Origin: Loktanella sp. PT4BL
GTDB taxonomy: Bacteria > Pseudomonadota > Alphaproteobacteria > Rhodobacterales > Rhodobacteraceae
DNA length: 64,000 nt
Direction: 5' to 3'
NCBI RefSeq assembly: GCF_003201935.1
Contig: NZ_QJJL01000001.1
Location: 310,001-374,000 of the forward strand
The notes under the pieces were generated by a model that ran no database searches, was not told the DNA's origin, and saw only the letters and a program-made list of their open reading frames with translations. The translations under genes and the position numbers were made by a program. This document shows positions 17,330-63,837 of the stretch, piece after piece. Every line of letters starts with the position of its first letter. Position 1 is the first letter of the stretch.

Positions 17330-17330
17330 A

Positions 17331-30163: not shown

Positions 30164-30202
30164 CGGCTTTTGTAATCTGGCCTCGAATGTGAATGGTAAA
30201 CG

Positions 30203-31753: not shown

Positions 31754-31769
31754 GGTAGGGCGAGAAAAG

Positions 31770-45386: not shown

Positions 45387-46252
45387 GCACACGAAAAGGA
45401 CTAATCCTCGCAGGCGGCACCGGTTCGCGGCTTTGGCCGATCACGCAAGGTCTGTCCAAGCAACTGATGCCGATCTACGACAAGCCGATGATCTATTACC
45501 CGCTTTCAGTGCTGATGCTGACCGGTATCCGCGAGATCGGGATCATCACGACACCGCAGGATCAGGCGCAGTTCCAGCACCTGCTTGGCGATGGCACGCA
45601 ATGGGGCGTAGAGATCACATGGCTGGTCCAGCAAAGCCCCGACGGTCTGGCACAGGCCTATCTGATTGCCGAGGGTTTTCTCGACGGATGCCCCTCGGCC
45701 ATGGTTCTGGGGGACAACATCTTTTTCGGCCACGGCCTGCCGGAACTGCTCGCCAGCGCGGATGCGCAGACGGATGGTGGCACGGTCTTTGGCTACCGCG
45801 TGGCTGATCCCCAGCGATATGGCGTGGTTGGGATGGATGAAACCGGGCGTGTGACCCGGATCATCGAAAAGCCGGATGTGCCGCCTTCCAACTACGCGGT
45901 GACAGGGCTTTATTTCCTCGATGGCACCGCCCCTGAACGCGCACGCACCATCAAGCCCAGCGCGCGTGGAGAGCTGGAAATCGTGAGCTTGCTGGAAAGC
46001 TATCTGGCCGAGGGCACGCTGAAGGTCGAGACCATGGGGCGCGGCTATGCGTGGCTTGATACCGGCACCCACGGCAGCCTGCTTGATGCCGCCAATTTCG
46101 TGCGCACCCTGCAAAGCCGGCAAGGGATGCAAACCGGATGCCCTGAAGAGATCGCCTATGGCGCTGGCTGGATCACTGATGCGGAACTGATTGCGCTGGC
46201 AGATCGCTATGCCAAGACAGAATATGGTGCCTATCTGCGCGGGCTGCTCTGA
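45383..46252 (+). CDS. rfbA: Glucose-1-phosphate thymidylyltransferase
   Basis: This 289-residue nucleotidyltransferase starts with KGLILAGGTGSRLWPIT, the pyrophosphorylase signature. It has SKQLMPIYDKPMIYYPLSVLMLTGIREIGII, VLGDNIFFGHGL and the Mg-site and sugar-binding residues of RmlA. It makes dTDP-glucose, the entry reaction to dTDP-rhamnose. As the last of the rfbCBDA set, it is followed after one base by a GT4 gene, which suggests that the rhamnose supply and transfer steps are co-expressed. Confidence 0.97.
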   Translation: MSTRKGLILAGGTGSRLWPITQGLSKQLMPIYDKPMIYYPLSVLMLTGIREIGIITTPQDQAQFQHLLGDGTQWGVEITWLVQQSPDGLAQAYLIAEGFLDGCPSAMVLGDNIFFGHGLPELLASADAQTDGGTVFGYRVADPQRYGVVGMDETGRVTRIIEKPDVPPSNYAVTGLYFLDGTAPERARTIKPSARGELEIVSLLESYLAEGTLKVETMGRGYAWLDTGTHGSLLDAANFVRTLQSRQGMQTGCPEEIAYGAGWITDAELIALADRYAKTEYGAYLRGLL

Positions 46253-46253
46253 T

Positions 46254-47444: not shown

Positions 47445-47524
47445 GGTGCCCTACTATCGCCAGATTGCGCGGGCATGGAGACACCGATGACACCACTTTC
47501 GCAAACCACCGGAACGCACAGCGC

Positions 47525-48496
47525 ATGACAGACACAGCCGACATTGCCGTGGTCGTGATTGGGCGCAACGAGGGTGCGCGCCTGGTGGCCAGCCTTGCAT
47601 CGCTGCAGGGGGTCGTGCCGCGCATCGTTTATGTGGATAGCGGGTCAACCGATAACAGCCTGCAGGCCGCACGCGATGCCGGCGCACAGGTGGTCGAACT
47701 GGACCTCAGCGTGCCTTTCACCGCCGCAAGGGCGCGCAACGCGGGTTTTGCGGCCCTCGATCCCGTGCCGGAATTTGTCCAGTTCATTGACGGTGATTGC
47801 ATGGTTGAACCGGGCTGGATCGAGCGCGGACTTGCAGCACTTGCCGCACATGATGACATGGGCATCGTCACCGGTTGGCGTTCAGAGTTATACCCCGATG
47901 CCAGCGTCTACAACGGACTGGCCGATTTCGAATGGCACAGACCTGCGGGTGATATTGACGTTTGCGGTGGTGATATGCTCGTCCGTTCGGCCGTCTTTCT
48001 TGAGGTCAACGGTTTCAACCCCGGAATCATTGCCGGAGAGGATGAAGAGTTCTGCATCCGTGTCGGTAAAGCAGGATGGCGGTTGCATCGTCTGCCTGAG
48101 AAGATGACGAAACACGATGCGGATATGATGCGCTTTGGACAGTGGTGGCAGAGGGCGGTGCGCGCGGGGCACGCCTTTACCCAAGTGAGCAGGTTGCACC
48201 CTGAATATGCACGGCGCACCCGCATCCGCATTTTGGTTTTCGGCGCAATCCTTCCGCTTGTTGCCTGTGTGGGTTTCATCTTTGCACCGTGGCTGCTGGT
48301 GCCGGTCGCCTTGCTCTATCTTTTGTCCTACGTCCGCACCGTCCGCGGTTTGCAAGCCGAAGGGTTGGCTGCGGACAAGGCCCGCCATCAGGCTGTTTTC
48401 CTCAGCCTGTCCAAAGTGCCCAATGTCATCGGCATGCTGACTTATTTCTGGCGACGGTTTCGCAACAAGGACATGGTGCTGATCGAATATAAATAG
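47525..48496 (+). CDS. GT2-family glycosyltransferase with C-terminal membrane helices
   Basis: This 323-residue GT-A protein has the start IAVVVIGRNEGARL, then YVDSGSTDNSLQAA, and the metal-binding FIDGDCMVEPGW (DxD). GGDMLVRSAVFLEVNGF and GEDEEFCIRVG are also conserved GT2 elements. Two or three hydrophobic helices near the end (ILVFGAILPLVACVGFIFAPW) tether it to the membrane. An upstream ATG at 47465 is possible, but 47525 fits the family N-terminus. It ends six bases from the convergent SGNH-like gene. Confidence 0.9.
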   Translation: MTDTADIAVVVIGRNEGARLVASLASLQGVVPRIVYVDSGSTDNSLQAARDAGAQVVELDLSVPFTAARARNAGFAALDPVPEFVQFIDGDCMVEPGWIERGLAALAAHDDMGIVTGWRSELYPDASVYNGLADFEWHRPAGDIDVCGGDMLVRSAVFLEVNGFNPGIIAGEDEEFCIRVGKAGWRLHRLPEKMTKHDADMMRFGQWWQRAVRAGHAFTQVSRLHPEYARRTRIRILVFGAILPLVACVGFIFAPWLLVPVALLYLLSYVRTVRGLQAEGLAADKARHQAVFLSLSKVPNVIGMLTYFWRRFRNKDMVLIEYK

Positions 48497-48502: not shown

Positions 48503-49429
48503 TCAGCTTCGCACCCCCGTGCGGGGCAGGGATGTCACGACATCCCAGACGACGTTTTGCATCAGACGCGCGGCCTCTGCGCCCGGATCATCCGCAGCTG
48601 TGCCATCTGCGCGCAATAGCTGGTGCGGCAGCCCGACAGGGCTTTGCTGATAGAGCACCGCATAATGCGTCAGCGCCATCAGATAGGCGCCATAGTCGTT
48701 GAAGTGGATGTCATCGCTGAACAGATCTTCATGGCTGGCCAAAGGCCCCACCGGTCCCTGTGCTTCCAAGGCGCGCGCGAAAGCGGCCATGACCTGACCA
48801 CCGGGGATAAGGTACACCGGTTGCGGGGTCTCGGCCCGTGCAAGTGCCGGTCGCAGAATGGCATCTTCCCAGTATAGACCCAAATCCTGATCAAGACGTG
48901 TCAGCCAACCGGTCTCATCATTCAACTGGTGCCATGTCTCATAGAGATAGACTGGCAGACCGCGGGCCTGGGCCATGTCGGTCCAGCGATAAACATAGGT
49001 TGGGCTGTCAAAATACCTGATCGCATCCTTGATCTCGACCATCTCGGTCAAAACAAGCGCATCATAATCGCCGGACTCCACCGCTTCGTGTGCATCACGG
49101 TATTTTTCATGCGCGTTTTCCTCGGCGAAACCGTTGATCGCAACATCCGGTTCCCAGTGCGATTTCAGCGTCGCGCCCCATCCCAACTGGCTAGTATAGT
49201 CATGCCCCTCACCCGCCAATTGGGCGAGCATCGCAGGCATATCACGGCCCACAAGACTATGGCCGATGTGGAAGACCTGCCGCAGGCCATCAGGCTTTGG
49301 GGCGGGTTCTGCGTAAAGCGCTTCAAAGGTGTCTTTATCAAGTGGCGCAGGATCGCGCGCATAGAGGCCAAGTGCGGCCAAGACAGCGAGGGCGGGTGCA
49401 ATAACAAATAACGCGATACGTTTAAACAT
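48503..49429 (-). CDS. SGNH-like exported protein, paralogue A (downstream end of the PKS operon)
   Basis: This 308-residue protein has a membrane anchor or signal peptide (MFKRIALFVIAPALAVLAALG). It then shows FHIGHSLVGRD with the nucleophile-type Ser, ALVLTEMVEI, VYLYETWHQL and SDDIHFNDYGAYLMALTHYAVLY with the Asp/His end. It is similar along its length to the product of 62989-63837. I start at 49429, since 49435 would be TTG. It overlaps the PPTase gene and is therefore the last gene of the PKS-GT-NRPS-PPTase operon. An esterase or deacylase acting on the product outside the cytoplasm is an inference. Confidence 0.78.
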   Translation of the reverse strand: MFKRIALFVIAPALAVLAALGLYARDPAPLDKDTFEALYAEPAPKPDGLRQVFHIGHSLVGRDMPAMLAQLAGEGHDYTSQLGWGATLKSHWEPDVAINGFAEENAHEKYRDAHEAVESGDYDALVLTEMVEIKDAIRYFDSPTYVYRWTDMAQARGLPVYLYETWHQLNDETGWLTRLDQDLGLYWEDAILRPALARAETPQPVYLIPGGQVMAAFARALEAQGPVGPLASHEDLFSDDIHFNDYGAYLMALTHYAVLYQQSPVGLPHQLLRADGTAADDPGAEAARLMQNVVWDVVTSLPRTGVRS

Positions 49430-50048
49430 AGGCAACAGATAGGATCAGACCGCCTTCGATCAAGATCGCACCTTTCATGTTTGCAAGGGTGGGATCACCA
49501 ACAACACGAAATGCGCCGTCGGTCATATCAAGCGTCACCGCGTCAAACCCGATGACCTTGCCGGTCAGCGGGTATTGGGCCTTATAAACAGCTTCTTTGG
49601 CACTGAAGATCATCTTTGCGGCAAGGCCCGGATCAGGTTCACCCGCAAGCCACGCGCGCTCTGCCGTGGTGCAGATGACCGCGAACAGATCGGGGGCGAG
49701 TGGCGTAGCCGGTTCAATATCGACGCCAAGCGTTTGATGGTCTTCCTTCAAGGCGACAACGGATACGCAGCAGGCGTCGCAATGGGCGATCGATCCTGAC
49801 ACCCCAGATGGCCAGATGGGTGCGCGATCAGGACCCTGCGGGATCGCGGCGGGCGCAAACCCGATCTCGGCCATTGCAGCACGCGCGGCACAGCGCCCTG
49901 CGGCAAATTCGGTGCGGCGTTTCGGGACGGCGCGGGCGACTGCGGCGGCCTCTTCATCCCAAAGCGCGGCGTCTTGGGCCGGATCAGTTACACCGATCCC
50001 GGCATGGGGGCCAAGCATTTGCCGCAGAGCCGCCCTTACGCCTTCCAT
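49422..50048 (-). CDS. Sfp-type 4'-phosphopantetheinyl transferase
   Basis: This 208-residue enzyme has the Sfp-family signatures GVDIEPATPL (near residue 109) and FSAKEAVYKAQYP (near 147). The start region RRTEFAAGRCAARAAMAEIG is typical of EntD/Sfp enzymes. It transfers the phosphopantetheine arm from CoA to the carrier-protein Ser. Its ATG overlaps the NRPS stop by one base. The two carrier domains encoded in this operon, NRPS PCP and PKS ACP, are its obvious targets. Confidence 0.94.
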   Translation of the reverse strand: MEGVRAALRQMLGPHAGIGVTDPAQDAALWDEEAAAVARAVPKRRTEFAAGRCAARAAMAEIGFAPAAIPQGPDRAPIWPSGVSGSIAHCDACCVSVVALKEDHQTLGVDIEPATPLAPDLFAVICTTAERAWLAGEPDPGLAAKMIFSAKEAVYKAQYPLTGKVIGFDAVTLDMTDGAFRVVGDPTLANMKGAILIEGGLILSVAYV

Positions 50049-53000
50049 CAGCGATTGCGCCTGCGCTCACGCATTTCACGGCGGCGGGCCATCGCGTCTT
50101 GGAGGGGGTCGCCGGTGGGTTGTGCAGCCGCAGGTGCCACCGCTGGCGGCGGCGTTTCGGCAGCGGGTTGCGGTGGTGCGGGCTTTGCGCCGACCTTTTG
50201 TGCCACGATCTTTGCCAACGCACCCAAGGTGGGCGCGCGGAAAATATCGGTGATCGACAGTTTCTGCACACCCATCGACGCGCGAATTTCACGGTGAACC
50301 TGCACTGCCAGCAGGGAATGCCCGCCAAGATCAAAGAAGCTGTCTTTCGCCCCGATTTGCGGCACACCAAGTGTCGCAGACCAGATCGCGGCGATCCTGT
50401 CGCTGATCTCGGCCTCTGATCCCAAATCAACGGGGGCCGGAGACACCGCAGGTGCCGCGACCGGCGCAGGTGCAGCGGGGGCCTGCCCAAGGGTGGGCGC
50501 CGGCAACGCCTTGCGGTCGATCTTCTTGTTGGGCGTCAAGGGAAAGGCATCCAGCGTCATGAAATGGCGCGGCACCATGTAGTCCGGCAGGGATTGCAGC
50601 ATCTCTTTGCGCAACGCGGCCTCGTCCACCTTGCCATCGGCCAACAGATAGCCAACCAGTTGCACCACCCCAGGCGTGTCTTCGCGCGCCACGACCACGG
50701 ATTGCTGAACCGCCTCATGCCGATCGATCACGCTTTCGATTTCGCCCAGTTCCACGCGGTACCCTCGCAGTTTGACCTGAAAATCAGCGCGCCCCAGAAA
50801 ATCAAGCCGCCCATCAGGCCGCCAGCGCGCCAGATCACCGGTGCGATACATCCGCCCTTCGGCAAAGGGGTTGGGCAGGAAGCGTTCGGCAGTCAGTTCA
50901 TCACGCTGGAAATAGCCACGCGTCACACCTGCGCCGCCGATATAGAGCTCGCCCGGCACACCAATCGGCACAGGCTGCATGGCATCATCCAGCACATAAA
51001 CCTGCGTATTTGCGATAGGTGTTCCGATGGGCACCGCACCCTGTCCCGCTTGCGCGGTCTGGGTGGTTGACCAGATCGTCGTTTCTGTCGGCCCATACAT
51101 GTTTTCGACATGCCCGCCTGTGATCTGGCGCAGCTCATCGGCCAGCGCACTCGGCAGGGCCTCGCCCCCGACCATCATGTGTTTGATCCCCGACAGGGCT
51201 GCGCGCGCCTCGTCGTTCATCGTCAGCATTTGCGCCATGGAGGGGGTGCATTGCAGATGGGTGACTTTATGGCGGGCAATCTGGGCCGCGATGGAATAAT
51301 CGCCCTGTGCGACCTCCTGATTGCTGGCCGCCACAACCTTTGCCAGCGGCTTCAACCCCTCCAGCACAAGGTCCACGTCAATGCCGTAATCAATCAGGCA
51401 GGCCACCTCGGTGACGCCAATGGCCTTGACCTCTTTGACGCGTTCAATCGCATCCTCGACCGTGCCGAACAGCCCGCTGTCGTTGAAATAGCGCTCGAAG
51501 GCGAATTCCAGAATGCCGTCCATCTCGTCTTCGTCGAGCGAGCCGAGATCAATCTGCATCGGGTTTTCGACACCCTTGGGTTTCTTGAACGCGGGAAAGG
51601 CCCACGCATATTGCTTGATCAGACCAGCAGCCGCACGCAGGTAGTCCTTCATCGGCTCACGCGCGATTTCGCGGGCGTGGTCGCGGGTGTCGGACAGGAA
51701 GCTGTGCAGCATCAAGGTGACGGTGAAATCGTCGGGGTTGTGGCCCGCCGCGCGCAATGCATCATGATAGATCACGATCTTTTCGGCCACTTCGCCCACG
51801 CTCTGCCCCAAGAGATGGGTCAGCACGTTGCAACCGTTGGTCCCCGCCTCTTTCCACGTTTCGGGGTTGCCAGCGGTCGTGACCCAAACATTGAGTTTCT
51901 TTGAAACAGGGCGCGGCTGCGTGACGACACCGTGCATTTCGCCGTTCGCACGCGGGAATTCCACGGTTTCACCGGCCCAAAGTTTGCGCAAATCGCGGAT
52001 CGCATCAAACATCGCGGGTTTGTTCTTGGGCGGCGTGTTTTCGGGCCGCAGCACAAAATCATCGGGCTGCCAGCCAGAGGCAATGGCAAGCCCGGTGCGC
52101 CCGTTTGTCAGGTTATCAATCACCGCCCATTCTTCGGCGATCCGTGCCGTGTGATGCAGAGGTGCCACGCAAGACCCCGCCCGCACCGCGAGATTTTGGG
52201 TCACGGCAGCAACGGCGGCACCCGTCACAGACGGGTTCGGGTAAGGCCCACCAAAAGCGTGGAAATGGCGTTCAGGCGTCCAGACCGCACAGAATCCGTT
52301 TTTGTCGGCGAATTGCGCGCCTTCCAGAAGCGACCTGTACTTGTCGCGCCCGATCCCGTCATCATTGCCCCAGTAAAACAGACTGAAATCCATGCCGACA
52401 CCCGGCGCGCTGCCTTCCCCTGCGACCAGTGCACGGCTTTCGTCGCCCGAGATTACAAGCTTGAACCCCCGCGCGAGGGTCCAGAACAGCTCCAGCACCG
52501 AAATATCAAACGACAGCGATGTGACCGCCATCCATACACCGGGCGGATCATGCGCAATGCGGTCGTCCATGCCGGTAAAGAAATTCGCAACATTGCGGTG
52601 TTCGACCATCACGCCTTTCGGCTTACCGGTCGAGCCTGAGGTATAGATCATATAGGCCAGATGCGCGCCGGTGACGCCGCTGTCAGGATTGCCCGTCTCG
52701 GTACCTGCGGGCAAGGCATCAACCAGCACGGTTTCGGCATCGGATGGTGGCAGATCGGCGGCAAGGGCGCTGTCGGTCACGATCACCTTCGTGCCGCTGT
52801 CTGCGATAAAATGGGCTGTCCGGTCGGCGGGATAGGCAGGGTCCATCGGCAGATAGGCACCGCCCGCTTTCATGATAGCCAAGGCCCCGATCAAAAGCGC
52901 GGAGGAACGCCGCAGGTGTAGACCAACAATCGCGTCAGGGCCAACGCCTTTGGCGCGCAGCACATGAGCCAGCGCATTGGCGCGGGTGTTCAGTTCCGCA

Positions 53001-54598
53001 TAGGTCAGGCTTTCGCCCTCAAAGGCCAGTGCCTCGGCATCGGGGGTGCGGGCGACCTGCGCCTCGAAGGCCTGATGGATGCACAGGTCGGCAGGGTAGT
53101 CCGTGGCGGTCGCGTTCCAGTCATAAAGAACGGTCTGCCGCTCTGCCTCGGACAGGATCGTGGGGGCCTCGCCCTTGGCGATCTGTGCTGCCATATGATC
53201 AAGGCGCGCGGCCATCAGTCGGGCGGTTGCCGCGCTCATCTTGCCCGTATCGGCGTAGAGCGTGTTCCCCGCCACTGTCAGGGCGGTCCCGTTGATGTGG
53301 CCTTGTGACGACAGCCCCAAGGCAGGCATCGCCACGCCACCGGGAATTCGGGCACAAAGATCGGCGGCAAATGGGCCACGGGCGGCGGCTGAATCAAAAT
53401 CATCGTCCGCGCCAACGGGCACCCAGTCATTCAGATAGCCGGGGTAGTCATGTACGACACCGAGCGCCAGCGTGACAGGATCATCTGACAACGCGGCCCC
53501 AAACGCCCCAAGCGCGCGAGCCAAATCAGCGGCATCGCCCGTCAACGGCAGGCTGATAACCTCGCCTTCACCCGCGCCCATGTCGATCAGCGGCAGGTTG
53601 GCAGGGGTCATCGCCGCAAGCGCTTTGCGCCATGTCCCCTCGTGTTTCAGTGTGGCTTTGAGCGCTGCGGTCAGCGCCGCGCCTTCTTCGGGTGTCAGCT
53701 TTGGCAGCACATCGCCAACTTGCGCAACATCTGCGACAGCGACAGCGCGCCCCACCGCATCGCGCAACCCCCGCAGGGTGACAGGCGCGGTGCCAGTTGC
53801 AACGGTGAGACTGTCATCGCCCACGGCCATCACCGTGCCGGGTGCCGCATCAGACGTGGTTTTTTCGGCAACTGCCTTGGCAACAAGAAACACACCTGCA
53901 TCCGTCGCGATCTTGGGGCAGGTCAGCGGGTTCCAATAGTCACCGTGGTCCAGCGCATGCACCAGCGTCGTGATCTTGCGCGCAGTTTGGGTGAAATCCA
54001 GACGTGCGGCGTTGGCTGGCCTGTCATTCTTGGCGAAATAGGTGCGCTGCGTCAGGTCTTGTGCTGTCACGACGGGGGCGTCACTGGCCAGCTTGTCGAT
54101 CACCGTGGCGAAACTGTCGATCGCGGCGGCATAGCATTTTGCATTCAGCGTCAGAACGTTTTCATCGGGGGCCACATCAAAAAAGCTTTGCGCCAGCAGC
54201 CTGCCTTCATCCACGCCGCCTTCGATCAAATGCCAGCTGATGCCGTACTCGGCCTCACCCGCCAAGAGCGCCCAAACCGGTGCATTCAAACCCGCATAGC
54301 GTGGCAATGGGCCATCATGGAAATTTGCCACCCCGCGCGCGGGCAGGGCCAGCACGGCATCGGGGATCATATCAAGGTTGGCGATGGATAAGAGCCAGTC
54401 AAAAGATAGGTCCGACAGGGCCGGCACCAGATCATCGTCAGAGGACACAACCGGCAGGCCCGCATCCCGCGCCCATGCGGCCACATCCGTGTTACGCGTC
54501 ACAACGGCAACAAGCGTATGGCCCGCATCACGCAGCATCTCGCCGCATTGAATGGCAAGGGATTCGTTTCCGATGATGACCGCGCGAAATGTGGACAT
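50048..54598 (-). CDS. Single-module NRPS: formyltransferase-like, A domain interrupted by luciferase-like monooxygenase, PCP
   Basis: This 1516-residue protein starts at the ATG at 54598 behind GGAGAAGAG. Residues 1-300 are formyltransferase-like (NFHDGPLPRYAGLNAPVWAL, GGVDEGRLLAQSF). About 300-500 is a weakly conserved region too short for a full condensation domain. The A domain opens near 500 and shows A2 KAGGAYLPMDP, A3 YTSGSTGKPKGVMVEH and A4 SLSFDISVLELF. It is broken at about 735-1090 by an FMN-type luciferase-like monooxygenase (WTPERHFHAFGGPYPNPSV), then resumes with YGPTETTIW, YRTGDLARW and KIDRKAL. The PCP (DSFFDLGGHSLLAV) is near 1426. The code residues D-I-L-Q-M-G-M-I-W-K resemble the glycine code. 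The tail is very basic (MARRREMRERRRNR). It follows the GT2 gene by one base. Confidence 0.93.
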   Translation of the reverse strand: MSTFRAVIIGNESLAIQCGEMLRDAGHTLVAVVTRNTDVAAWARDAGLPVVSSDDDLVPALSDLSFDWLLSIANLDMIPDAVLALPARGVANFHDGPLPRYAGLNAPVWALLAGEAEYGISWHLIEGGVDEGRLLAQSFFDVAPDENVLTLNAKCYAAAIDSFATVIDKLASDAPVVTAQDLTQRTYFAKNDRPANAARLDFTQTARKITTLVHALDHGDYWNPLTCPKIATDAGVFLVAKAVAEKTTSDAAPGTVMAVGDDSLTVATGTAPVTLRGLRDAVGRAVAVADVAQVGDVLPKLTPEEGAALTAALKATLKHEGTWRKALAAMTPANLPLIDMGAGEGEVISLPLTGDAADLARALGAFGAALSDDPVTLALGVVHDYPGYLNDWVPVGADDDFDSAAARGPFAADLCARIPGGVAMPALGLSSQGHINGTALTVAGNTLYADTGKMSAATARLMAARLDHMAAQIAKGEAPTILSEAERQTVLYDWNATATDYPADLCIHQAFEAQVARTPDAEALAFEGESLTYAELNTRANALAHVLRAKGVGPDAIVGLHLRRSSALLIGALAIMKAGGAYLPMDPAYPADRTAHFIADSGTKVIVTDSALAADLPPSDAETVLVDALPAGTETGNPDSGVTGAHLAYMIYTSGSTGKPKGVMVEHRNVANFFTGMDDRIAHDPPGVWMAVTSLSFDISVLELFWTLARGFKLVISGDESRALVAGEGSAPGVGMDFSLFYWGNDDGIGRDKYRSLLEGAQFADKNGFCAVWTPERHFHAFGGPYPNPSVTGAAVAAVTQNLAVRAGSCVAPLHHTARIAEEWAVIDNLTNGRTGLAIASGWQPDDFVLRPENTPPKNKPAMFDAIRDLRKLWAGETVEFPRANGEMHGVVTQPRPVSKKLNVWVTTAGNPETWKEAGTNGCNVLTHLLGQSVGEVAEKIVIYHDALRAAGHNPDDFTVTLMLHSFLSDTRDHAREIAREPMKDYLRAAAGLIKQYAWAFPAFKKPKGVENPMQIDLGSLDEDEMDGILEFAFERYFNDSGLFGTVEDAIERVKEVKAIGVTEVACLIDYGIDVDLVLEGLKPLAKVVAASNQEVAQGDYSIAAQIARHKVTHLQCTPSMAQMLTMNDEARAALSGIKHMMVGGEALPSALADELRQITGGHVENMYGPTETTIWSTTQTAQAGQGAVPIGTPIANTQVYVLDDAMQPVPIGVPGELYIGGAGVTRGYFQRDELTAERFLPNPFAEGRMYRTGDLARWRPDGRLDFLGRADFQVKLRGYRVELGEIESVIDRHEAVQQSVVVAREDTPGVVQLVGYLLADGKVDEAALRKEMLQSLPDYMVPRHFMTLDAFPLTPNKKIDRKALPAPTLGQAPAAPAPVAAPAVSPAPVDLGSEAEISDRIAAIWSATLGVPQIGAKDSFFDLGGHSLLAVQVHREIRASMGVQKLSITDIFRAPTLGALAKIVAQKVGAKPAPPQPAAETPPPAVAPAAAQPTGDPLQDAMARRREMRERRRNR

Positions 54599-54599
54599 G

Positions 54600-55592
54600 T
54601 CACTCTTCTCCGGTTTGCAGACGCCCCTGAAGGGGCTGTCCGCGCATGGGTTTGAATATTGCGGCAAAGTCATGCGCAGCCATTGTCCGCAGGAAATGCG
54701 GGGCCGCGCCATGTCCTTTTCCAGTCAATTTACAGCGCAGCCAGTGCAGGCCGCCGCCCGTCAAATGCATGATCGTGGCACAGGTGGCATAAGCACGCCC
54801 GTGATTCTTGGCGAAGTAATACCAGCGCGAATCGAACCAGTAGTCCGGCACGCGCTTCCATTCCTTCATTCCGGTTGAAACCGATCCCAGATGTGTGACC
54901 ACGCTATCGGCAAGGAACATGCCCTGATGCCCCGCCTTTTGCACACGGCGGCACAGATCGGTTTCCTCGAAATACAAAAAGAATGTCTCGTCAAACAACC
55001 CGATTTCATCCAGCACGTCCTGCCGGATCATCATGCTGGCACCGGCCAGCCAATCGACAGGGGCTGTCTCGGTCAACTCTCTGGGCACCCGATAGGATTT
55101 CAACACCTTGCTGACAGGGCCGAAATGGATGGACCCTTCCAATTCGCTCCAGACCGAAGGGAAACGAAAGGTCGTGGTGTGCTGCACACCGTCTTCACCG
55201 GCGATAAAGCTACCGGCGAAACCGGTACTCGGGGTTGTGTTCAGATGGTCATACAGCACACGGATCGCATCGGGCTTGGGAAAGGCGTCCGAGTTCAGGA
55301 TATAGACGTAATCCGGCCTGCCGCCATCCGACAGCCCCGCACGAATACCAACGTTATTGCCCGCGCCAAAGCCGCCGTTGCGGCCCGACTGGATCACACG
55401 GGTCCTGTCCCAGCCCGCAGAGACGACATGCGCCGCCATCGTCTCGAATGATCCGTCCTGACTGTCATTATCGACGATCACAATCTCGCCCGGCAAACCC
55501 TGCATCGCCACCCGCGCGGCGTCTGCCGCTTCCAGCGTCATCTGTGCTGTCTTATAATTCAGCACGATTGTCAGGATGCTTGGATCAGACAT
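54600..55592 (-). CDS. GT2 glycosyltransferase inside the PKS-NRPS operon (rhamnosyltransferase-like)
   Basis: This 330-residue GT-A enzyme starts ILTIVLNYKTAQMTLEAA and shows IVIVDNDSQDGS and GRNGGFGAGNNVGIRAGL. The last stretch is typical of WbbL/RfbN-type rhamnosyltransferases. The DXD-like site is YVYILNSDAFP, followed by ASMMIRQDVLDEIGLFDETFFLYFEETDLCRR. It lies between the PKS stop (no gap: TAGATG) and the NRPS start (one base gap), so it is inseparable from the natural-product operon. The probable donor is dTDP-rhamnose, made by rfbCBDA nearby. An alternative is a role in the EPS, but the operon placement argues for the polyketide. Confidence 0.88.
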   Translation of the reverse strand: MSDPSILTIVLNYKTAQMTLEAADAARVAMQGLPGEIVIVDNDSQDGSFETMAAHVVSAGWDRTRVIQSGRNGGFGAGNNVGIRAGLSDGGRPDYVYILNSDAFPKPDAIRVLYDHLNTTPSTGFAGSFIAGEDGVQHTTTFRFPSVWSELEGSIHFGPVSKVLKSYRVPRELTETAPVDWLAGASMMIRQDVLDEIGLFDETFFLYFEETDLCRRVQKAGHQGMFLADSVVTHLGSVSTGMKEWKRVPDYWFDSRWYYFAKNHGRAYATCATIMHLTGGGLHWLRCKLTGKGHGAAPHFLRTMAAHDFAAIFKPMRGQPLQGRLQTGEE

Positions 55593-58500
55593 CTATTCAG
55601 CGGCTTCCCTATAAGTGTTTGCAACTCCCGCCGGCCTTTCAAGATAGCGGCGGATGCGGGCAGCCAGCACGCGCACATTGGGTTCAAGCACCATGCTGTC
55701 ATGGTCACCAGGGACTTCGAACACTTCCAGACCCGGAACAAACCTGGTCCAGTCATTGTCAGGATAAAGATAGGTGCGTTCCGAACTAATGAGCCGGTTG
55801 CCAACAGTCCATTTCGGCACCAAGGGCGGGCGGAACAGTGCCATCGTCCCATCCCAGGGTTTGACCTGATAGGCGCCGACGCTTTCCAGGAACGCATCCT
55901 GAATCGCCAGATTATGAAATTGCTGACCTTCCTCGGCGGTCTCTTCGCGGCCTTTTCGTTTCGCGATCTCCCATGCGACCCGCGACTTGAACCAGTTCAC
56001 CAGATACATCGGACCGCCGCGCTGGATATCCTGCAATTTCGTGCGTAAACGATCGCCGCGATCCATGATTGGGCGGACCGGTAGCGGCGTATCCAGTAAC
56101 ACAAGTGCAGCAACCTCTTCACCCTGCGCGCGCAGCTGGTGGGCAATTTCAAAGGCCGTAATGCCGCCACCGGAAAAACCGCCCAAGTGATAGGGACCAT
56201 GCGGCTGCACCTGCCGCATCTCGGCAATGTAATCAGTGGCAGCGGCCTCAATCGTGCGGTGCGGTTCTTCGTCACCCAATAGGCCGCGCGCCTGCAAACC
56301 GTAGAACGGACGGTCGCTGCCGATCAGATGGGCCAGATGGCGCAGGTTCAAAACGTTACCGAACATCCCCGCCACAAGAAAGAACGGCGGCTTCCGCCCG
56401 CCTTCGCCCTGATGCATCGGCACCAGATGGGTAAAGCGCCGCGTATGCGTTTTGGGGGCGTCGGCTGGCGCATCTCCGCCCTCAACCGTCACACCGCGTG
56501 CGGCAATCAGCGCCGCACATTTGCGGATTGTCGGGGCCTCGAACAGCACGGAAATCGGGAAATCAACGGAAAACGCCTTGCGGATTTGCGCAAAGAGCCG
56601 GACCGCAATCAGGGAATGGCCACCAAGATCAAAGAAACTGTCCTCGGCGCCGATCTGATCGACACCCAGAAGGTCCTGCCAGAAACCGGCCAGCCGCTCT
56701 TCGATCGGACCTTCGGGGGCGACATAGTCACTATCGAGTTGCGGACGCGAGAATTTCTGCCCGTCTTCGGCATCATCGTCATCACTTTGGCCCGCCTGCG
56801 CAATCAGCGCCTCCAGATCAAGCGACGACAGGATCACCTGTTGATGCGGGCTGATGAGCGCACGCAAGAACAGGTCCGCCCCTTCCTCTGCACGGATACC
56901 TTGCGACAGGTTATGGCGCAGCCGTTCTTCGGCAGGTGACAAGGGTCGTACCACATCATCCTGCCCCGCCGTTGCAGGGGCAGGATCTTGCGCGCCAAAG
57001 CCTGTCATCTCGGCCATCTGGCGGATCGTAAATCCGGTGATGTCCACACAGACCGTCCCGTCCGGAGCGGCAAGCGTGATGTCAAAGCTGGCGATGTCGC
57101 TGTCTGACGTGTTGTCGCGCGCGTTGCGCACCCAGCTGACCACCTGTGCAGGCAGCGGGGCATAGACCTTGACCGACCGATAGGACACCGGCACCCAAAG
57201 GTGCTGCGCGGTATAGCCCTTGATCAGCTTCATAGCCCAGCCCGTGGCCAGATCCAACATGCCGGGATGCAGCAAATAACCTGCCTCTGCATCCCCCGCC
57301 GCGGCTTGCGGCAGCGCGAGCGTGGCAAGCCCCTCATCATCGCCAAGGGCCGTGGATTGCAGGACCCGCCAGCGCGGACCGAATTTCAGATGCGCCTCTT
57401 GCGGTGACGCAATCCAGCCCAGTTCACCCGCTTCAATCGGCGGCGCACAGCGCGCGGCGATGGCGGCAATATCCAGCGGCGCAGGCGCGCCCATGGGCAG
57501 GATTTGCAGACTGGCCTGTGCGTTCTGGGCAAAGGCACCATCCGTGCCGCTTTCGACCAAAAACTCATAGCCTGCTTCACTGCGCGGCAAGGTCAGGCGC
57601 AGGTTCACAGATCCGCTATCACCCACCGCAAAGGGGCGCAGGAAATAGAGGTCACGGATTTCAAAGGCGGCCGTTTCACCCATGCTTTGCAGGGCCTCGG
57701 CGGCCATTTCCAGATATCCGGTACCCGGCACGAGCGCGTCACCTGCCTTGGTGCGGTGCTCATCCAGAAACCAGCGGTCCGCCACTGTGTAGGACGCGGT
57801 AAAGACACGCGCGCCCGCACGATCAAATGTCGCCTGATCCAGCATGGGCGCGCTGACATCCGTCACCTCGGCAGGGGCTGCGGCACCGGTGCGTTCTTCC
57901 ATCGCATCGGCCGCCATACCCACATCGGCCCAGATGCCCCAGTTGATCGCGCGCACCATCGTCGTACCGCCGCTGCGCGATTTGGCATAGGCGTTCAGGT
58001 ATTCGTTCGCCGCCACATAATCGACCTGCCCGATGGGTGCCGTAGCAGTTGAACTTGAGGCGAAAAGCACAAGCCAGTCCAGATCGCCGTCAGGGAACAC
58101 CTCGTCCAGCACTTGGGTGCCGTGGATTTTCGGGGCAAAGACATCTTCGATGCTGGTCACATCCTTGGCCATAATCGGCGCGTCGTCGATGTGGCCAGCG
58201 GCATGGATCACCCCGTTGATCGGCCCGAACGCCGCCTCAACCTGCGCGCGGGCGTCGCGGATATCCTCGACGTTGCTCACATCCGCCGCGACCGACAGGA
58301 TCTCACCGCCCAACGCCTCAAGCGCCTGCACCGCCTTGATGCGCCGTGCAAGTGACGCGGTTGGCGGGGTATTTCTCAGCGTCGTCTCCCACGCGTCACG
58401 CGGCGGCAAAGCACTCCGCGACAGAAGCGCAATCCGCGCACCACAGCGTTTGATCAGTGCCTCGGCCAGCGTCAGGCCGATGCCACCAAAACCACCGGTG

Positions 58501-61500
58501 ATCAGATAGACACCTTTGTCTTTCAACACAGGCAATGGGCCGTCATCAGGCAAATCGGTCAGCGCCGCAGGTTTATAGGTGAGCGCGAACCGCTTTCCCC
58601 CGCGCACCAATGCGGTGCCATTGCCCGGATCGGCCAGCGCGTCCTCAAGGATATGGCCCACCAAACGGTCGGTATCGGCTTTGGCCATCCGGCGCTTCTT
58701 GCGTCCCTCGGCCTGCGGCAATTCCAGATCAAGCGTCGCCACCGTCAGATGTGGGAACTCACGCGGGATGACACGCGCAGGGCCAGCAAGCGTGGCTTTT
58801 TCCGGGTGCGGCAGGGCCTCGCCCTTGTGCTGGGCGGCCCCGTTTGACAGCACGATCATATGAATATCGCCTGCCAAATCCTCGCCACCAATCGCTTGGG
58901 CAAGGAAGAACAGGCTATAGAACCCCTGTTCCTGCACGCGGTGGAAGAAGCTTGAACCGGGGCGGAAACTTTCATCCGCCGTAATCATCCAGCCGTGCAG
59001 AATACGGGTCGGGATCAGATCGCGGGTGTTGAGATCGGCAATCAGTAGATCATAGCCTTCGCGCCCACGTTCAGGGGCAAGGAAATATCCCCCCGCGCCA
59101 TCACGCGCAAAAGTATCACCGGGGCGTACTGTGACCACATCATGCCCAGCGTCGCGCAACCTTTCAGCGGCGGCGGCGCACAGGCCCGCATCATCGGCAA
59201 AGACCAGCCATATCTGTTCTTCGGCCTCGGACAGATCACCGGTGACGTCCACGTCGCAGGCCGCATAGCGCGGCAGCCATGCAGGGCGATAACCCCATTC
59301 ATCGGGCGGCGTGTTGCGGGTCAGCCACTCGCTGGCCTCATCTGTCGTCGCTGTGCCGGGTTCGATGAAATAGGCGGCATGCTGGAACGCATAGGTTGGG
59401 AGCGGGACGCGCAAACGCCGCGCATCGCCCCAGATCTGGCCCCAGTCAAATGTGCCGCCAACGGCCCAGACACGGCCCAGCATCGCCATGAAATAAGCAT
59501 CATCCGCGATATCGTCCTTGGGGTGGCGCAGGCTCGAAATCACCTGATTTGCAGTCACCTTGCCATGCTGGCCCGCCAGCGACGACATCGCCTTGCCGGG
59601 GCCGACTTCGATAAAGACGCGGTCGTCTTTTTCGGCCAGCGTGGTCAGGCAATCGGCAAAGCGCACCGTGCCGCGCAGATGGCCGACCCAGTATTCGGGG
59701 TCCTGCGCCTGTTCATCGGTGATGAATGCACCCGTGCGATTGGACGTGAACGGGATCTTCGGGGCATGCAGCTCAATTGACCGCAGGTAATCGCCGAAAT
59801 CCTTCAGGATCGGGTCAAGCATCCGCGAATGTGCAGCGATATCAATCGGAATGCGCTGGCAGTCGATATCCTTGGCCTTCAGCCGCGCCTCAAGATCATC
59901 GAGCGCTGATTGCGGACCAGTGGCGACGCTGAGTGAAGGGGCGTTCACAGCGCCCAAATCCAGATCATCGCCCAGGAAGGGTTCCAACTGATCCGCAGGC
60001 AGTGCAATCGACAACATGCCGCCCGCAGGAACGGTATCAAATAGCTTGCCGCGCAAATGCACCAGTCCGATGCAGTCCTCGAAAGACATGACACCGGCGA
60101 CACAGGCGGCGGTGTTCTCACCCATCGAATGACCTGTCAGGGCGGCAGGCTGCACACCCCAGCTCATCCAGAGTTGCGCCAGCGCATATTCCACGATCAT
60201 GATCAGCGGCAATTGCACGGAAGGTTGGGTCAGCTTGGCATCAGCGGCGGCTTCCTGCCCGGGCTCGGGCAGCCAAAGCGCGCGGATATCGTAATCCAGC
60301 TTGGGTTGCAGGATGGCCAGACCCTGATCCATCCATTCCGCAAAGACAGGCTCGGTCTCGTAAAGGTCCCGCGCCATGCCCGCATATTGCGCGCCACCAC
60401 CGGGGAACATGAAAACATAATCGGGGTCTTCACCCACGACCGTATGGCTGAACGCGCGGCGGGGGTCGTTTGCTTCCAGCTGGGCTGCGGCGTCTTCATG
60501 GGTCTCGGCCACAATCACGCGGCGGCGCTCAAACGCGCGACGCCCCTTTTGCAGGGTCCATGCCACGTCAGCAAGCGGCTGGTCAGGGTTTGCGCGCAGG
60601 TGCGCGGCTAGCGCGGCGCAATTGGCATCAAGTGCGGCCTTGTTACGCCCCGAGACCGTGAGAATCTGAAACGGCCAATCCGACGCATCCGACGGCGGCA
60701 ATTCCGGCGCTTCCTGCAACACGACATGGGCGTTGGTCCCGCCCACACCCAGCGAATTCACACCGGCGCGCCTTGGCCCTTTATGGCTGACCCAATCGGT
60801 CAGCCTGTCATTCACGCGAAAAGGCGAGGTTTCGAAATCAATCGCAGGATTGGGCTTTTCATAACCCAGCGATGCAGGAATCAGTTTGTGATGCAGCGCG
60901 AGCGAGGTCTTGATCAGACTGGCCACGCCCGCCGCCGTATCCAGATGGCCGATGTTGGTTTTCACCGAACCGATCCGGCAGAACCCCACCTCGTCCGTGG
61001 TTTCCTGAAAGGCCTGCGTGAGTGCGGCAACCTCGATCGGGTCACCCAGATAGGTGCCGGTGCCGTGGCATTCGATATAGTCGATGGTGTCGGCGGGCGT
61101 CTCGGCAATCATCTGCGCCTCTGCAATCGCCTCGGCCTGTCCGTCTACAGAGGGGGCAAGATAGCCGGCCTTGGCCGCGCCATCGTTGTTGATCGCCGAA
61201 CCCTTGATGACAGCCCAGATATGATCACCGTCGGCAATCGCATCTTTCAGACGGCGCAGGACCACTACACCCGCGCCCGACCCGAAAACCGTGCCTTGCG
61301 CGCGATGGTCAAAAGCGTGGCAATGGCCGTCAGGCGACAGCACCTCGCCCTCTTTGTAGATATACCCGCGGTCCTGTGGCAGTTCGATCGTGACACCGCC
61401 CGCCAGCGCCATGTCACATTCACCCGACAGCAGGGCCTGCGTGGCGTAATGGGTCGCAACCAGAGAGGTGGAGCAAGCGGTCTGCACGTTCACACTCGGG

Positions 61501-62042
61501 CCTTTGAGGTCGAAAATATGGCTCAGCCGTGTAGTCAGGAAATCCTTGTCGTTGCCGGTGTGACGCAGCAGGAACATCCCCACATTGTCGACCAGTTTGG
61601 GGTTCGAGCAGATGTTGAAATAGAAATAGCTGCCCATGCCGCAGCCCGCAAAAACACCAATCGGGCCTTTCGCGTTTTCCGGCATATGGCCTGCGTTTTC
61701 CATGGCCTCCCACGCCACCTCAAGGAAACGGCGGTGCTGCGGGTCCATGATGGCGGCTTCTTTGGCGGAGAGGCCGAAGAACTCGGTGTCAAAATTCTGG
61801 TAACCGGAAAGCGGTGCCGCAGCAGGCACGTAATCGGGCCTGTTCAGACGATGCGCGGCCTCGCCCGCCGCCAGCAATTCTTCCTTGCTGTAATGGCGGA
61901 TCGATTCGATGCCGTTTTTCAGATTGTCCCAATAGGCCGCAACCGTATCTGCACCAGGTAAATGCGCAGCCATTCCGACAATGGCGATGTCAGTTTCGGC
62001 GAAATCGATATCATCTCGTGATAGGGGCAACAGAACTACCAA
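55593..62042 (-). CDS. Type I polyketide synthase KS-AT-KR-DH-ACP-TE
   Basis: This 2149-residue single-module PKS has a KS (residues 15-440) with TACSTS (Cys near 190), ECHGTGTYLGDP and KTNIGHLDTAAG. Its AT has GHSMGE (near 637) and IAAHS at the selectivity site, neither HAFH nor YASH. KR has TGGFGGIG (near 1184) and the YVAANEY active site. DH has DEHRTKAGDALVPG (near 1434), one residue longer than the usual HxxxGxxxxP, and an LDLATG element. ACP (DSFFDLGGHSLIAV) is near 1800 and TE (GGFSGGG) near 1954. KR before DH is unusual for cis-AT modules. The start is TTG at 62042 with GAGG four bases upstream; a later start would remove conserved KS residues. It heads the operon. Confidence 0.94.
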   Translation of the reverse strand: MVVLLPLSRDDIDFAETDIAIVGMAAHLPGADTVAAYWDNLKNGIESIRHYSKEELLAAGEAAHRLNRPDYVPAAAPLSGYQNFDTEFFGLSAKEAAIMDPQHRRFLEVAWEAMENAGHMPENAKGPIGVFAGCGMGSYFYFNICSNPKLVDNVGMFLLRHTGNDKDFLTTRLSHIFDLKGPSVNVQTACSTSLVATHYATQALLSGECDMALAGGVTIELPQDRGYIYKEGEVLSPDGHCHAFDHRAQGTVFGSGAGVVVLRRLKDAIADGDHIWAVIKGSAINNDGAAKAGYLAPSVDGQAEAIAEAQMIAETPADTIDYIECHGTGTYLGDPIEVAALTQAFQETTDEVGFCRIGSVKTNIGHLDTAAGVASLIKTSLALHHKLIPASLGYEKPNPAIDFETSPFRVNDRLTDWVSHKGPRRAGVNSLGVGGTNAHVVLQEAPELPPSDASDWPFQILTVSGRNKAALDANCAALAAHLRANPDQPLADVAWTLQKGRRAFERRRVIVAETHEDAAAQLEANDPRRAFSHTVVGEDPDYVFMFPGGGAQYAGMARDLYETEPVFAEWMDQGLAILQPKLDYDIRALWLPEPGQEAAADAKLTQPSVQLPLIMIVEYALAQLWMSWGVQPAALTGHSMGENTAACVAGVMSFEDCIGLVHLRGKLFDTVPAGGMLSIALPADQLEPFLGDDLDLGAVNAPSLSVATGPQSALDDLEARLKAKDIDCQRIPIDIAAHSRMLDPILKDFGDYLRSIELHAPKIPFTSNRTGAFITDEQAQDPEYWVGHLRGTVRFADCLTTLAEKDDRVFIEVGPGKAMSSLAGQHGKVTANQVISSLRHPKDDIADDAYFMAMLGRVWAVGGTFDWGQIWGDARRLRVPLPTYAFQHAAYFIEPGTATTDEASEWLTRNTPPDEWGYRPAWLPRYAACDVDVTGDLSEAEEQIWLVFADDAGLCAAAAERLRDAGHDVVTVRPGDTFARDGAGGYFLAPERGREGYDLLIADLNTRDLIPTRILHGWMITADESFRPGSSFFHRVQEQGFYSLFFLAQAIGGEDLAGDIHMIVLSNGAAQHKGEALPHPEKATLAGPARVIPREFPHLTVATLDLELPQAEGRKKRRMAKADTDRLVGHILEDALADPGNGTALVRGGKRFALTYKPAALTDLPDDGPLPVLKDKGVYLITGGFGGIGLTLAEALIKRCGARIALLSRSALPPRDAWETTLRNTPPTASLARRIKAVQALEALGGEILSVAADVSNVEDIRDARAQVEAAFGPINGVIHAAGHIDDAPIMAKDVTSIEDVFAPKIHGTQVLDEVFPDGDLDWLVLFASSSTATAPIGQVDYVAANEYLNAYAKSRSGGTTMVRAINWGIWADVGMAADAMEERTGAAAPAEVTDVSAPMLDQATFDRAGARVFTASYTVADRWFLDEHRTKAGDALVPGTGYLEMAAEALQSMGETAAFEIRDLYFLRPFAVGDSGSVNLRLTLPRSEAGYEFLVESGTDGAFAQNAQASLQILPMGAPAPLDIAAIAARCAPPIEAGELGWIASPQEAHLKFGPRWRVLQSTALGDDEGLATLALPQAAAGDAEAGYLLHPGMLDLATGWAMKLIKGYTAQHLWVPVSYRSVKVYAPLPAQVVSWVRNARDNTSDSDIASFDITLAAPDGTVCVDITGFTIRQMAEMTGFGAQDPAPATAGQDDVVRPLSPAEERLRHNLSQGIRAEEGADLFLRALISPHQQVILSSLDLEALIAQAGQSDDDDAEDGQKFSRPQLDSDYVAPEGPIEERLAGFWQDLLGVDQIGAEDSFFDLGGHSLIAVRLFAQIRKAFSVDFPISVLFEAPTIRKCAALIAARGVTVEGGDAPADAPKTHTRRFTHLVPMHQGEGGRKPPFFLVAGMFGNVLNLRHLAHLIGSDRPFYGLQARGLLGDEEPHRTIEAAATDYIAEMRQVQPHGPYHLGGFSGGGITAFEIAHQLRAQGEEVAALVLLDTPLPVRPIMDRGDRLRTKLQDIQRGGPMYLVNWFKSRVAWEIAKRKGREETAEEGQQFHNLAIQDAFLESVGAYQVKPWDGTMALFRPPLVPKWTVGNRLISSERTYLYPDNDWTRFVPGLEVFEVPGDHDSMVLEPNVRVLAARIRRYLERPAGVANTYREAAE

Positions 62043-62988
62043 ACAGCCTCGGGAACAGAAGCATTACAAATACCAGCAACAATAGGCAAAATTATGTCAG
62101 TTTTCTTGATGTCACAAGCAGGTTTACTCCCTGCATGTGACCATTTCGAGCTAACCACTTGGCCGCCCACATGCAGCGTTAGTGCAAAAGGCAGATTAAT
62201 TGTAGCATCAGTGGCCTAATTTGGTGGGCTGGGTCACATCTCATGGCAGATGTTCGTTTTCTGGCCTCACGCCGCAATCAAGCCTGCCAACATAGCTCGT
62301 TGGGTGTTTAGGCCTCGTGTTGTGCCGTCCGAGCGTGACTTTCGGCCTCCAAGATTGGATCGATAGAGTATTCCCCAGATTGGGGATCGATTGGACGGTC
62401 GAGACGAGTTGTCTTCGCTTAGCGTTCCTTGGCCTTGCGGTAATATTGAAGCTGGCTGTGCATGCAGCCGTTGAATGGCCGCGATGATATGGCTGAACAA
62501 TTGACCAGTGATAGCCGCCTGCGCGTTGCACAGTCATTGCGTAGGGCATAGCGGACAATCCGTGCCGCAAGAGGCCAAAAACGCACCATCTAGCTTGGCA
62601 CTATGGGCAGGTGAGTGACTATGAAGCCCACACGCGGAAAGAACTCGCTGGGATACAATTTGACCTAGGCGGCAGCGCCTAGGCGCGTATCCAATTCCTA
62701 AAATAACAGCAATCTGGTGTCTGAGCGGTTTTTTGAACCATGAAATTCCAGACACCCTGATGGTCGAAACCTAGGTATAAGGAAGCCGCGTCGGTTGCAC
62801 CGTCATAGGCACGCGCGAAATCTCGCTCCAGGCGACATCAACCTGTTGAAATATGGCACTTTACTGGCAGTCAGGGCTCAGATTCGTCGGTCTGCTCAAC
62901 GAATACGGACTCTTAGAGAACACAACATTTGGGAACCCTGCTGCGTCGCTTCAAGTTCAAAACCCTGTTGCAGGGCAGTGGCAGAGAA
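62043..62988. other. 946-base gap upstream of the PKS; no credible gene
   Basis: Several short frames exist here, but none has a family signature, RBS or signal peptide. The first 120 bases should hold the PKS promoter. A hairpin with an eight-base stem (CCTAGGCG, four-base loop) lies at 62664-62683 without a T tract. The rest resembles eroded sequence, perhaps old mobile-element remains, but I cannot name a transposase family. Confidence 0.5.
62664..62683. other. Eight-base-stem hairpin in the gene-free gap
   Basis: CCTAGGCG, loop GCAG and the exact reverse complement form a hairpin. No U-run follows on either strand, so it is not a standard terminator. It may be a remnant of a mobile-element end or a protein-binding site. 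Confidence 0.4.
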
Positions 62989-63837
62989 TTATTCAGAAAG
63001 CACCTTCCAAACGAGATCTTGCATAAACCTTGCTTGTTCGGGGGTTGCGCCCCCCATGTTCTGCATTCCGCGCGGGTCGCGGCCATAGATCACCGCAAAA
63101 TGGGCCAGCGCAATATAGTAGTTTCCGAGCGCATTGAGATGAATCATGTCTTCAAAAAGATCAGAAAAATCATCCAAGCCGGGGGCATTGCCTGCCTCAA
63201 TCTCGTCATATATCGCAGCCATTAAGAGCGGACCGGGGATCATTCGCATTTCTGGCGAACCGGCTGGCCGATTCTCGTTTGTATAGTCCAACATGCTTTG
63301 CCAGCGGACCATCTCTAGATCTAGACGTTCGCGAAATGGTGTGAACTTTTCAGGATCATTCCAAGGAAACTGAGTGTTTGGGCCGCTATCAATGTCCACC
63401 CATGTTGCGTAGAGGATCGTCTCAGCACCCTTTCCTTGGTTGCCGTTTTCCCATGAATTTTCGAACCACAAAAGCGATTGCTCGATTGAATTATGCCATG
63501 GGAGTGTACTCGAGAGCGGGACGCGTTCGGTCAGCACAAGGGTGTCGTAATTTGCGATATCACTTTTTGCATCAGGTTGGCCGTAGCCTGGAGCCTGTTC
63601 CCAACGCATTTCCATGGGGCTTCCTGGAATTGTGGATTTATCAATGACAACTGTCGGACTACCTGCATACCGCACCATCGCCCGCAGAGGTTCGAAAATC
63701 CCGTCAGTGAGGCTGTGCCCTGATTGTATCACGCGCTGGTTCAAAGGCCTTTCTTGGGCATGACTTTCTGCTGGCCACGAGAATAACAGCGCCAAACCAG
63801 CAGAAAGTACGAAACTGGCGAAACTTTTTCTTACCAT
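62989..63837 (-). CDS. SGNH-like exported protein, paralogue B (upstream of the PKS)
   Basis: This 282-residue protein has a signal peptide (MVRKSFASFVLSAGLALLFSWPAESHA) and then VIQSGHSLTDGIF, TLVLTERVPL, YATWVDIDSG and DMIHLNALGNYYIALAHFAVIYG. These match, in order, the blocks of the product of 48503-49429, including the ARFMQDLVWKVLS end against ARLMQNVVWDVVTS. It is on the same strand as the PKS operon but separated from it by 946 bases, and is somewhat more AT-rich. It probably acts in the periplasm. A hydrolase role rests on the GHS and D-x-x-H motifs only. Confidence 0.8.
   Translation of the reverse strand: MVRKSFASFVLSAGLALLFSWPAESHAQERPLNQRVIQSGHSLTDGIFEPLRAMVRYAGSPTVVIDKSTIPGSPMEMRWEQAPGYGQPDAKSDIANYDTLVLTERVPLSSTLPWHNSIEQSLLWFENSWENGNQGKGAETILYATWVDIDSGPNTQFPWNDPEKFTPFRERLDLEMVRWQSMLDYTNENRPAGSPEMRMIPGPLLMAAIYDEIEAGNAPGLDDFSDLFEDMIHLNALGNYYIALAHFAVIYGRDPRGMQNMGGATPEQARFMQDLVWKVLSE

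Follow-up and report, generated by a model that had tools for sequence, protein, structure and literature searches.

All Roseibaca carry a hybrid biosynthetic gene cluster (BGC) of the nonribosomal peptide synthetase (NRPS)-like/type I polyketide synthase (PKS) type, which one paper records in 18 of 37 species as an unknown cluster with low MIBiG similarity; its main text discusses antibiotic or antitumour potential and uses the word 'exopolysaccharide' 0 times (PMC10584327). Comparable parts occur in several further systems: the myxothiazol and melithiazol assembly lines have a monooxygenase inserted between motifs A4 and A5, where its target for hydroxylation is a glycyl residue (PMC10204066), for the PuwE oxygenase a fatty acyl chain, and not glycine, is the proposed substrate (PMC4219810), the PKS genes wcbR and rkpA lie in capsule clusters (PMC3908369), and in Sphingomonas the acylation of a lipid-linked intermediate has been proposed as needed for exopolysaccharide (EPS) production (PMC11340318). 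Here we describe an operon of Loktanella sp. PT4BL that encodes a PKS, a GT2 glycosyltransferase, an NRPS, a 4'-phosphopantetheinyl transferase (PPTase) and an SGNH hydrolase-like protein (SGNH1). It lies in a window of 64,000 nucleotides (contig NZ_QJJL01000001.1, positions 310,001 to 374,000), from whose first base all coordinates are counted. We propose, with a probability of roughly 0.6, that this operon is an optional accessory cassette of the adjacent EPS locus and would supply the polymer with a short acyl group derived from glycine.

Conserved linkage of the cassette to exopolysaccharide genes

The cassette was followed in two sets, namely the best 80 loci out of at least 531 relatives recovered by a contig scan, each with up to 10 kb per side of the operon, and 25 regions comprising 20 of 57 NRPS-bearing family genomes and five plasmid records, which were compared with controls drawn at random from carrier genomes (20 stretches of 20 kb each). 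Of the five-gene order that the initial annotation had suggested comparing across relatives, the PKS-GT2-NRPS part is kept in 80/80 loci, whereas the PPTase is matched in only 71 and SGNH1 in 27. The 25 regions give a similar picture (PKS and NRPS in 25, GT2 in 23, PPTase in 20, SGNH1 in 10), and in 23 of them PKS, GT2 and NRPS lie side by side, in this order and on the same strand, the exceptions being G144 and L011. EPS genes are frequent in these regions (GT2b in 22, GT4c in 21, CpsD and WecB in 20 each, Wzx in 19, and Wzz in 17), and each was matched in 0/20 controls; the queries that did match controls were DppF (6 of 20), galE (4), rfbB (3), and PKS, SDR and histidine kinase (1 each). 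From a set of 14 EPS markers, at least one was matched in 77 of the 80 loci, two in 70 and three in 59, against 0/20 controls. At least three EPS layouts can be told apart by eye around the cassette, which thus accompanies EPS machinery even though that machinery differs. Two Hydrogenophaga (Betaproteobacteria) loci scanned against NCBIfam both have WcaJ above the cut-off, and one of them (L163) additionally has EpsE above and an XrtA-type ATPase below it.

By its gene content, the stretch of the window from ~23.8 to 48.5 kb is an EPS locus of the XrtD/VPLPA-CTERM type. Among 40 congeners, 12 have the cassette, 14 have XrtD and 10 have both (Fisher p 6e-5), the two lying no more than 25 kb apart in all 10. 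One congener (G485) has the syntenic series PolyExp-TPR-SugTr-ATPase-Wzz-CpsD-XrtD ... GT4c-rfbADBC with no cassette beside GT4c, a place where others, such as G484, carry it. The cassette thus appears to be an accessory plug-in, and since it can be absent while the EPS locus remains, it would modify the polymer instead of being needed to build it.

Architecture of the operon and its proteins

The five genes abut or overlap on the minus strand (62042..48503), with the coordinates and spacing that the initial annotation gave: the PKS end (55593) directly meets GT2 (to 55592; gap zero), one base separates GT2 from the NRPS (ATG at 54598), base 50048 is common to the NRPS stop and the PPTase start, and the PPTase and SGNH1 (TTG at 49435) overlap by 14 bases. 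A mechanical list of open reading frames (ORFs) starts the NRPS at 54712; the initially annotated 54598 is likelier. All five genes are under purifying selection, with dN/dS of 0.026-0.195 in 15 comparisons (five genes against three relatives; one dS value, GT2 against L139, is saturated), and the low dN/dS together with the gene order kept in 80/80 loci argues that the operon is more than chance. The range 48503-63837, first taken as one locus, includes this operon but also a second SGNH-like gene (SGNH2), which was rejected as a member because it lies 946 bp away and has a match in only 3/80 loci. The intervening 946 bp between it and the PKS (62043-62988) hold no recognizable gene, the ORF at 62241-62570 matching no family at E 0.01. 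SGNH2 is 31% identical to SGNH1 in alignment, and in one genome (G498) a relative of it occurs on the opposite side of the cassette, amid EPS genes.

Table 1. Features of the operon and the neighboring EPS locus (window coordinates)
Feature	Coordinates	Strand	Basis or remark
Type I PKS, 2149 aa, KS-AT-KR-DH-ACP-TE	55593..62042	-	TTG start uncertain; Pfam/NCBIfam and motifs
GT2 glycosyltransferase, constant cassette member	54600..55592	-	Glycos_transf_2
NRPS: formyltransferase, C-domain remnant, A (predicted glycine code) split by luciferase-like monooxygenase between A4 and A5, PCP	50048..54598	-	Pfam/NCBIfam
4'-phosphopantetheinyl transferase (PPTase)	49422..50048	-	4PPT_N and ACPS
SGNH hydrolase/acyltransferase-like protein (SGNH1)	48503..49435	-	AlphaFold model, invariant triad
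Second SGNH-like protein (SGNH2)	62989..63837	-	separate gene outside operon
GT2 of EPS locus	47465..48496	+	convergent with cassette
GT4 of EPS locus, adjoining rfbA	46191..47444	+	kept in cassette-free congener G485
rfbC, rfbB, rfbD, rfbA: dTDP-rhamnose synthesis	42896..46252	+	
GT4 of EPS locus	41311..42585	+	
Wzx-like flippase	39613..41016	+	
Multi-pass membrane protein, possible Wzy-type polymerase	37703..39202	-	hydrophobic pattern by eye
Exosortase XrtD (VPLPA-CTERM-specific)	34839..36443	-	TIGR04152 638.4 bits, cut-off 400
XrtA-type ATPase, Wzz-type chain-length protein, CpsD-like kinase	29318..32642	+	
Initiating sugar transferase (Bac_transf)	28228..29109	-	
Polysaccharide export protein and PrsT-like TPR protein	25052..28187	-	

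The PKS constitutes a single module with a thioesterase (TE), as first read, in which the ketoreductase (KR) precedes the dehydratase (DH) and the domain scan gave no match to an enoylreductase (ER). The ketosynthase (KS) Cys/His/His, the acyltransferase (AT) GHSMG, the KR YxxxN, the DH His/Asp, the GGHSL carrying the acyl carrier protein (ACP) serine, and the TE GFSGG motifs are all present, and the catalytic residues are likewise kept across the alignments; a few aligned rows deviate in the flanking motif positions, including one that does so at AT GHS.

The NRPS matches Formyl_trans_N and C, AMP-binding in two pieces with TIGR04020 between them, and PP-binding. The TIGR04020 luciferase-like monooxygenase (LLM) match (469.6 bits, cut-off 244.45) covers residues 738-1088, with A4 at 696 and A5 at 1165, placing the insertion between these two motifs of the adenylation (A) domain. 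No Pfam Condensation match was found in this protein, and HHxxxDG is absent in 26/26 aligned NRPSs, in agreement with the initial statement that no full condensation (C) domain is recognizable. The formyltransferase has N92, H94 and D130, a motif aligned across the 26 sequences, and the serine of the peptidyl carrier protein (PCP) is present both in the window protein and across the alignment; the protein thus has the composition of an initiation module of the LgrA (F-A-PCP) type, namely a formyltransferase with N, H and D followed by A and PCP. The adenylation code, whose ten positions were mapped by hand, by motif, in the 26-NRPS alignment, is DILQMGMIWK in the window and DILQxGMIWK in 26/26 (9/10 positions identical; x is M in 15, L in 6, F in 2, Y in 2, and A in 1). 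Against reference codes, this type reads as a glycine code; in alignment, module 1 of DhbF (5u89), presumably glycine-activating, has Q, L, G, L, I and W at six code places, two of which thus carry L where the window code has M. On this code, the amino acid loaded is most likely glycine. The occurrence of the LLM in 80/80 loci proves nothing, because the patterns of the locus scan lay within it; the other domains have few misses in the 80 loci, all in 10-20 kb loci ending near the operon. The NRPS C-terminal tail is net positive in 26/26 and the PKS N-terminus net negative in 22/26 (zero in 2, positive in 2), a docking-like charge pattern that is only suggestive, since start codons were assigned mechanically.

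Among the remaining proteins, the PPTase was correctly named at the outset. GT2 had been labeled rhamnosyltransferase-like, a weak label that we rejected because its TIGR01556 score (39.5) is far under the cut-off (200.55). SGNH1 has no Pfam match, but its AlphaFold model (mean pLDDT 94.7) resembles SGNH structures, the nearest being a DUF4886 structure, followed by esterases such as acetylxylan esterases, with PatB lower; Ser60, Asp241 and His244 are invariant in 25 aligned sequences. By its modeled fold and this Ser/Asp/His triad, it belongs to the SGNH hydrolase superfamily, as supposed from the start, and its N-terminal helix (residues 3-26) is a probable membrane anchor. In Hydrogenophaga pseudoflava (L170, 17516-25693), the genes next after the cassette encode a GT4, then an NRPS of 2001 aa (by Pfam: AMP-ligase, carrier, C, A, carrier, TE) and then the SGNH orthologue; as this orthologue follows a second NRPS, more than a single assembly line may rely on the SGNH gene. 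On a Paracoccus marcusii plasmid (L012), the EPS region around the cassette also includes, at a distance of ~8 kb, a second adenylation-domain gene (1-1937).

Within the EPS locus, the multi-pass membrane protein matches no family and has relatives near the cassette in 14/25 regions. A candidate VPLPA-CTERM protein (32720-33382) scores 25.0 against a cut-off of 25.35. Just beyond the locus, 19574-20290 encodes a NAGPA phosphodiester glycosidase family protein.

Phyletic distribution and natural variants

At E<=1e-100, the NRPS is found in 57/149 family genomes, sampled one per genus and including the window's own, a count that takes in a few fragments, the distant G144 (45% identity), and the monooxygenase-free G085 and G097. 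A class-wide draw gave 6/337 at E<=1e-150, five of them within Rhodobacteraceae, again with the own genome included. In the window's genus, a full-length PKS occurs in 12/40 genomes, own included, with two further partial matches at 43-45%. The nearest named relatives among the matches listed are Loktanella sp. 5RATIMAR09 (94%) and Yoonia sp. F2084L, and relatives also occur on plasmid records of Ruegeria, Parasedimentitalea, Paracoccus and Aminobacter. In a tree built by a quick method, which covers the window, five others and 78 of the 80 loci (two had NRPS frames that a length filter removed), four Hydrogenophaga loci (L163, L164, L167, L170) form one clade with support 100; several deep forks are left open and XL011, XL012 and XG144 are long branches. 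The nesting of this clade amid rhodobacterial sequences (at forks with support 94 and 89) suggests transfer of the cassette between classes.

Two loci depart from the usual domain set. In L223 of G085 (8197-17830), the PKS-GT2-NRPS-PPTase order is kept beside Wzx- and EpsE-like genes, and matches to KS, AT, KR, ACP, TE, the formyltransferase N-domain, A and PCP remain, but the NRPS has no monooxygenase match and the PKS no DH match. As both domains are missing together, this single case hints that oxidation and dehydration may belong to one series of steps. The second (L227 of G097), also in an EPS locus, looks decayed: its PKS is in two frames with no C-terminal KS match, and its NRPS has no monooxygenase or PCP match.

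Rhamnose genes

The initial annotation had pointed to rfbCBDA beside the operon, where these genes indeed lie (Table 1), as the supplier of the product's sugar. For the genus this proposal keeps some force: rfbD is present in 12/12 carriers against 10/28 non-carriers (p 1.2e-4), and each of the 10 genus regions read has rfb genes inside its 40 kb, a link to be expected of a single EPS locus. For the family, rhamnose as the obligatory sugar of the cassette was rejected: outside the genus, rfbC, rfbD and rfbA occur in 2/25 regions, and rfbD was not found at E <= 1e-40 in 3/20 carrier genomes that are 97-99% complete. In the 80 loci, which include those of the genus, rfbA, rfbB and rfbD are matched in 8 each and rfbC in 3. 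Rhamnose thus probably belongs to the EPS of this genus, without being a constant component of what the cassette makes.

Proposed function and alternative readings

The sequences show the order of the genes, their domains and catalytic motifs, the purifying selection on them and their conserved linkage to EPS genes. Given that the assembly line sits amid EPS genes in many marine bacteria, we propose that it produces a decorating group of EPS rather than a free drug-like compound. The PPTase would prime both carrier domains and the A domain would load glycine on the PCP, where the formyltransferase might N-formylate it and the luciferase-like domain might hydroxylate its alpha carbon. The PKS would then take over the unit, add one malonate, reduce and dehydrate, and the TE would release an approximately C4 acyl unit or pass it on to one of the sugars in the lipid-linked EPS repeat. 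The cassette GT2 might add, or act on, the acceptor sugar, and SGNH1, probably membrane-anchored, could edit or move the acyl group outside. The assembly-line part of this scheme (a formylated and oxidized aminoacyl starter, NRPS before PKS, one extension and TE release) was anticipated by the initial annotation and is backed by the catalytic motifs and purifying selection. If true, a widespread hybrid cluster of marine Rhodobacteraceae would be a surface-polysaccharide modifier and not an antibiotic pathway, which would redirect genome mining, explain the strong conservation of this BGC, and mean that NRPS-PKS logic is used for decorating the coat of surface-living bacteria.

Several points weigh against EPS decoration. 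Linkage alone is not proof of joint action, and a free TE-released product retains a share of the probability. Three of the 80 loci have no EPS marker (L167 and L214, ~10 kb each, and L145, at 24.7 kb a true miss), and G144, with a distant NRPS and PKS (~45%), has neither GT2 nor EPS markers. Within the genus, 2/12 carriers (G508, G516) have no XrtD match and 4/14 XrtD genomes have no cassette; the genomes being related, the Fisher values overstate independence. The EPS markers were taken from the window, L009, L011 and L012, and so were not a blind choice, and the controls were 20 kb against tested stretches of 10-40 kb. Among non-EPS queries, DppF was matched in 7/25 regions against 6/20 controls, and Omp85 and TamB in 3/25 against 0/20. 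Finally, the suggested glycine specificity depends on a hand-mapped code and its likeness to reference codes.

The initial annotation had favored a free glycosylated peptide-polyketide. That the operon makes such a diffusible compound, the EPS genes being mere neighbors in a surface-polysaccharide island, we consider unlikely: the complete NRPS-PKS-TE line, its own PPTase and the GT2 in the operon would suit it, as would the usual release of a free acid or lactone by TE domains, but in most of the loci read the cassette is surrounded by EPS genes, a linkage that persists in different genera, through different EPS layouts and into another class, and family matches assign none of the five genes to export, resistance or regulation.

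A more specific and rather speculative form of the decoration hypothesis, to which we give a low probability, is sacrificial formylation. N-formyl glycyl-S-PCP would be hydroxylated and the carbinolamide would split into formamide and glyoxylyl-S-PCP, from which the PKS would make a 4-oxo-butenoyl group, so that the EPS would receive a reactive aldehyde/enoyl C4 unit. This scheme is modeled on the myxothiazol cleavage, with formyl in place of the peptide. Such a unit could cross-link or tan the slime, and the G085 variant would make an unreactive 4-formamido-3-hydroxybutanoyl form. If true, EPS would carry an NRPS-PKS-built decoration, with such an NRPS in 57/149 sampled genera (a few fragments and distant or monooxygenase-free members counted in).

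A role like that of RkpA/WcbR, in which the PKS would supply a lipid or primer for building or anchoring the polymer, perhaps by iterative chain growth, is doubtful. An ER domain is a feature of those capsule PKSs, whereas our PKS has no ER match and has a TE and an NRPS partner; a congener, moreover, holds the EPS locus without the cassette. In favor of such a role, capsule clusters that contain type I PKS genes have been described before (PMC3908369). Modification of a sorted exosortase-system protein (the VPLPA-CTERM candidate) in place of EPS is very improbable, for although XrtD lies close to the cassette in the 10 congeners with both, it is matched in only 1/25 regions and 1/80 loci (up to 10 kb per side) and is missing from two genus carriers, and general EPS markers are far commoner.

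Comparison with known systems

The initial claim that the cluster is undescribed was nearly right: what is probably the same hybrid has been reported as an unknown BGC (PMC10584327). That hybrid, with an NRPS of 4,527 nt, a PKS of 6,333 nt and a ~990 nt gap the size of the GT2 gene, resembles the window cassette, an equation inferred from sizes only. In print, the cassette seems to be present only as an unknown antiSMASH hybrid, and no link to EPS appears in the literature searched, most subscription papers being outside that search; its parts are known, and their combination and setting are not described there.

The best PDB sequence match of the NRPS is LgrA, the F-A-PCP start of linear gramicidin synthesis, which likewise has a formyltransferase before A with N/H/D kept; unlike the window protein, it has no inserted oxygenase and makes a long peptide. 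The glycine modules of myxothiazol and melithiazol share with the window NRPS the insertion site and the predicted substrate. There, the hydroxylated residue carries a peptide, which is released as an amide, whereas the window NRPS has a formyltransferase before A, a C remnant and a PKS downstream. The oxygenase domain of PuwE (puwainaphycin, PDB 6ket) belongs to the same luciferase-like family as NRPS residues 735-1085. The PKS, likened by features and not by clade, differs from RkpA/WcbR in having a TE and an NRPS partner and no ER, and agrees with them in being a type I PKS encoded within a surface-polysaccharide cluster.

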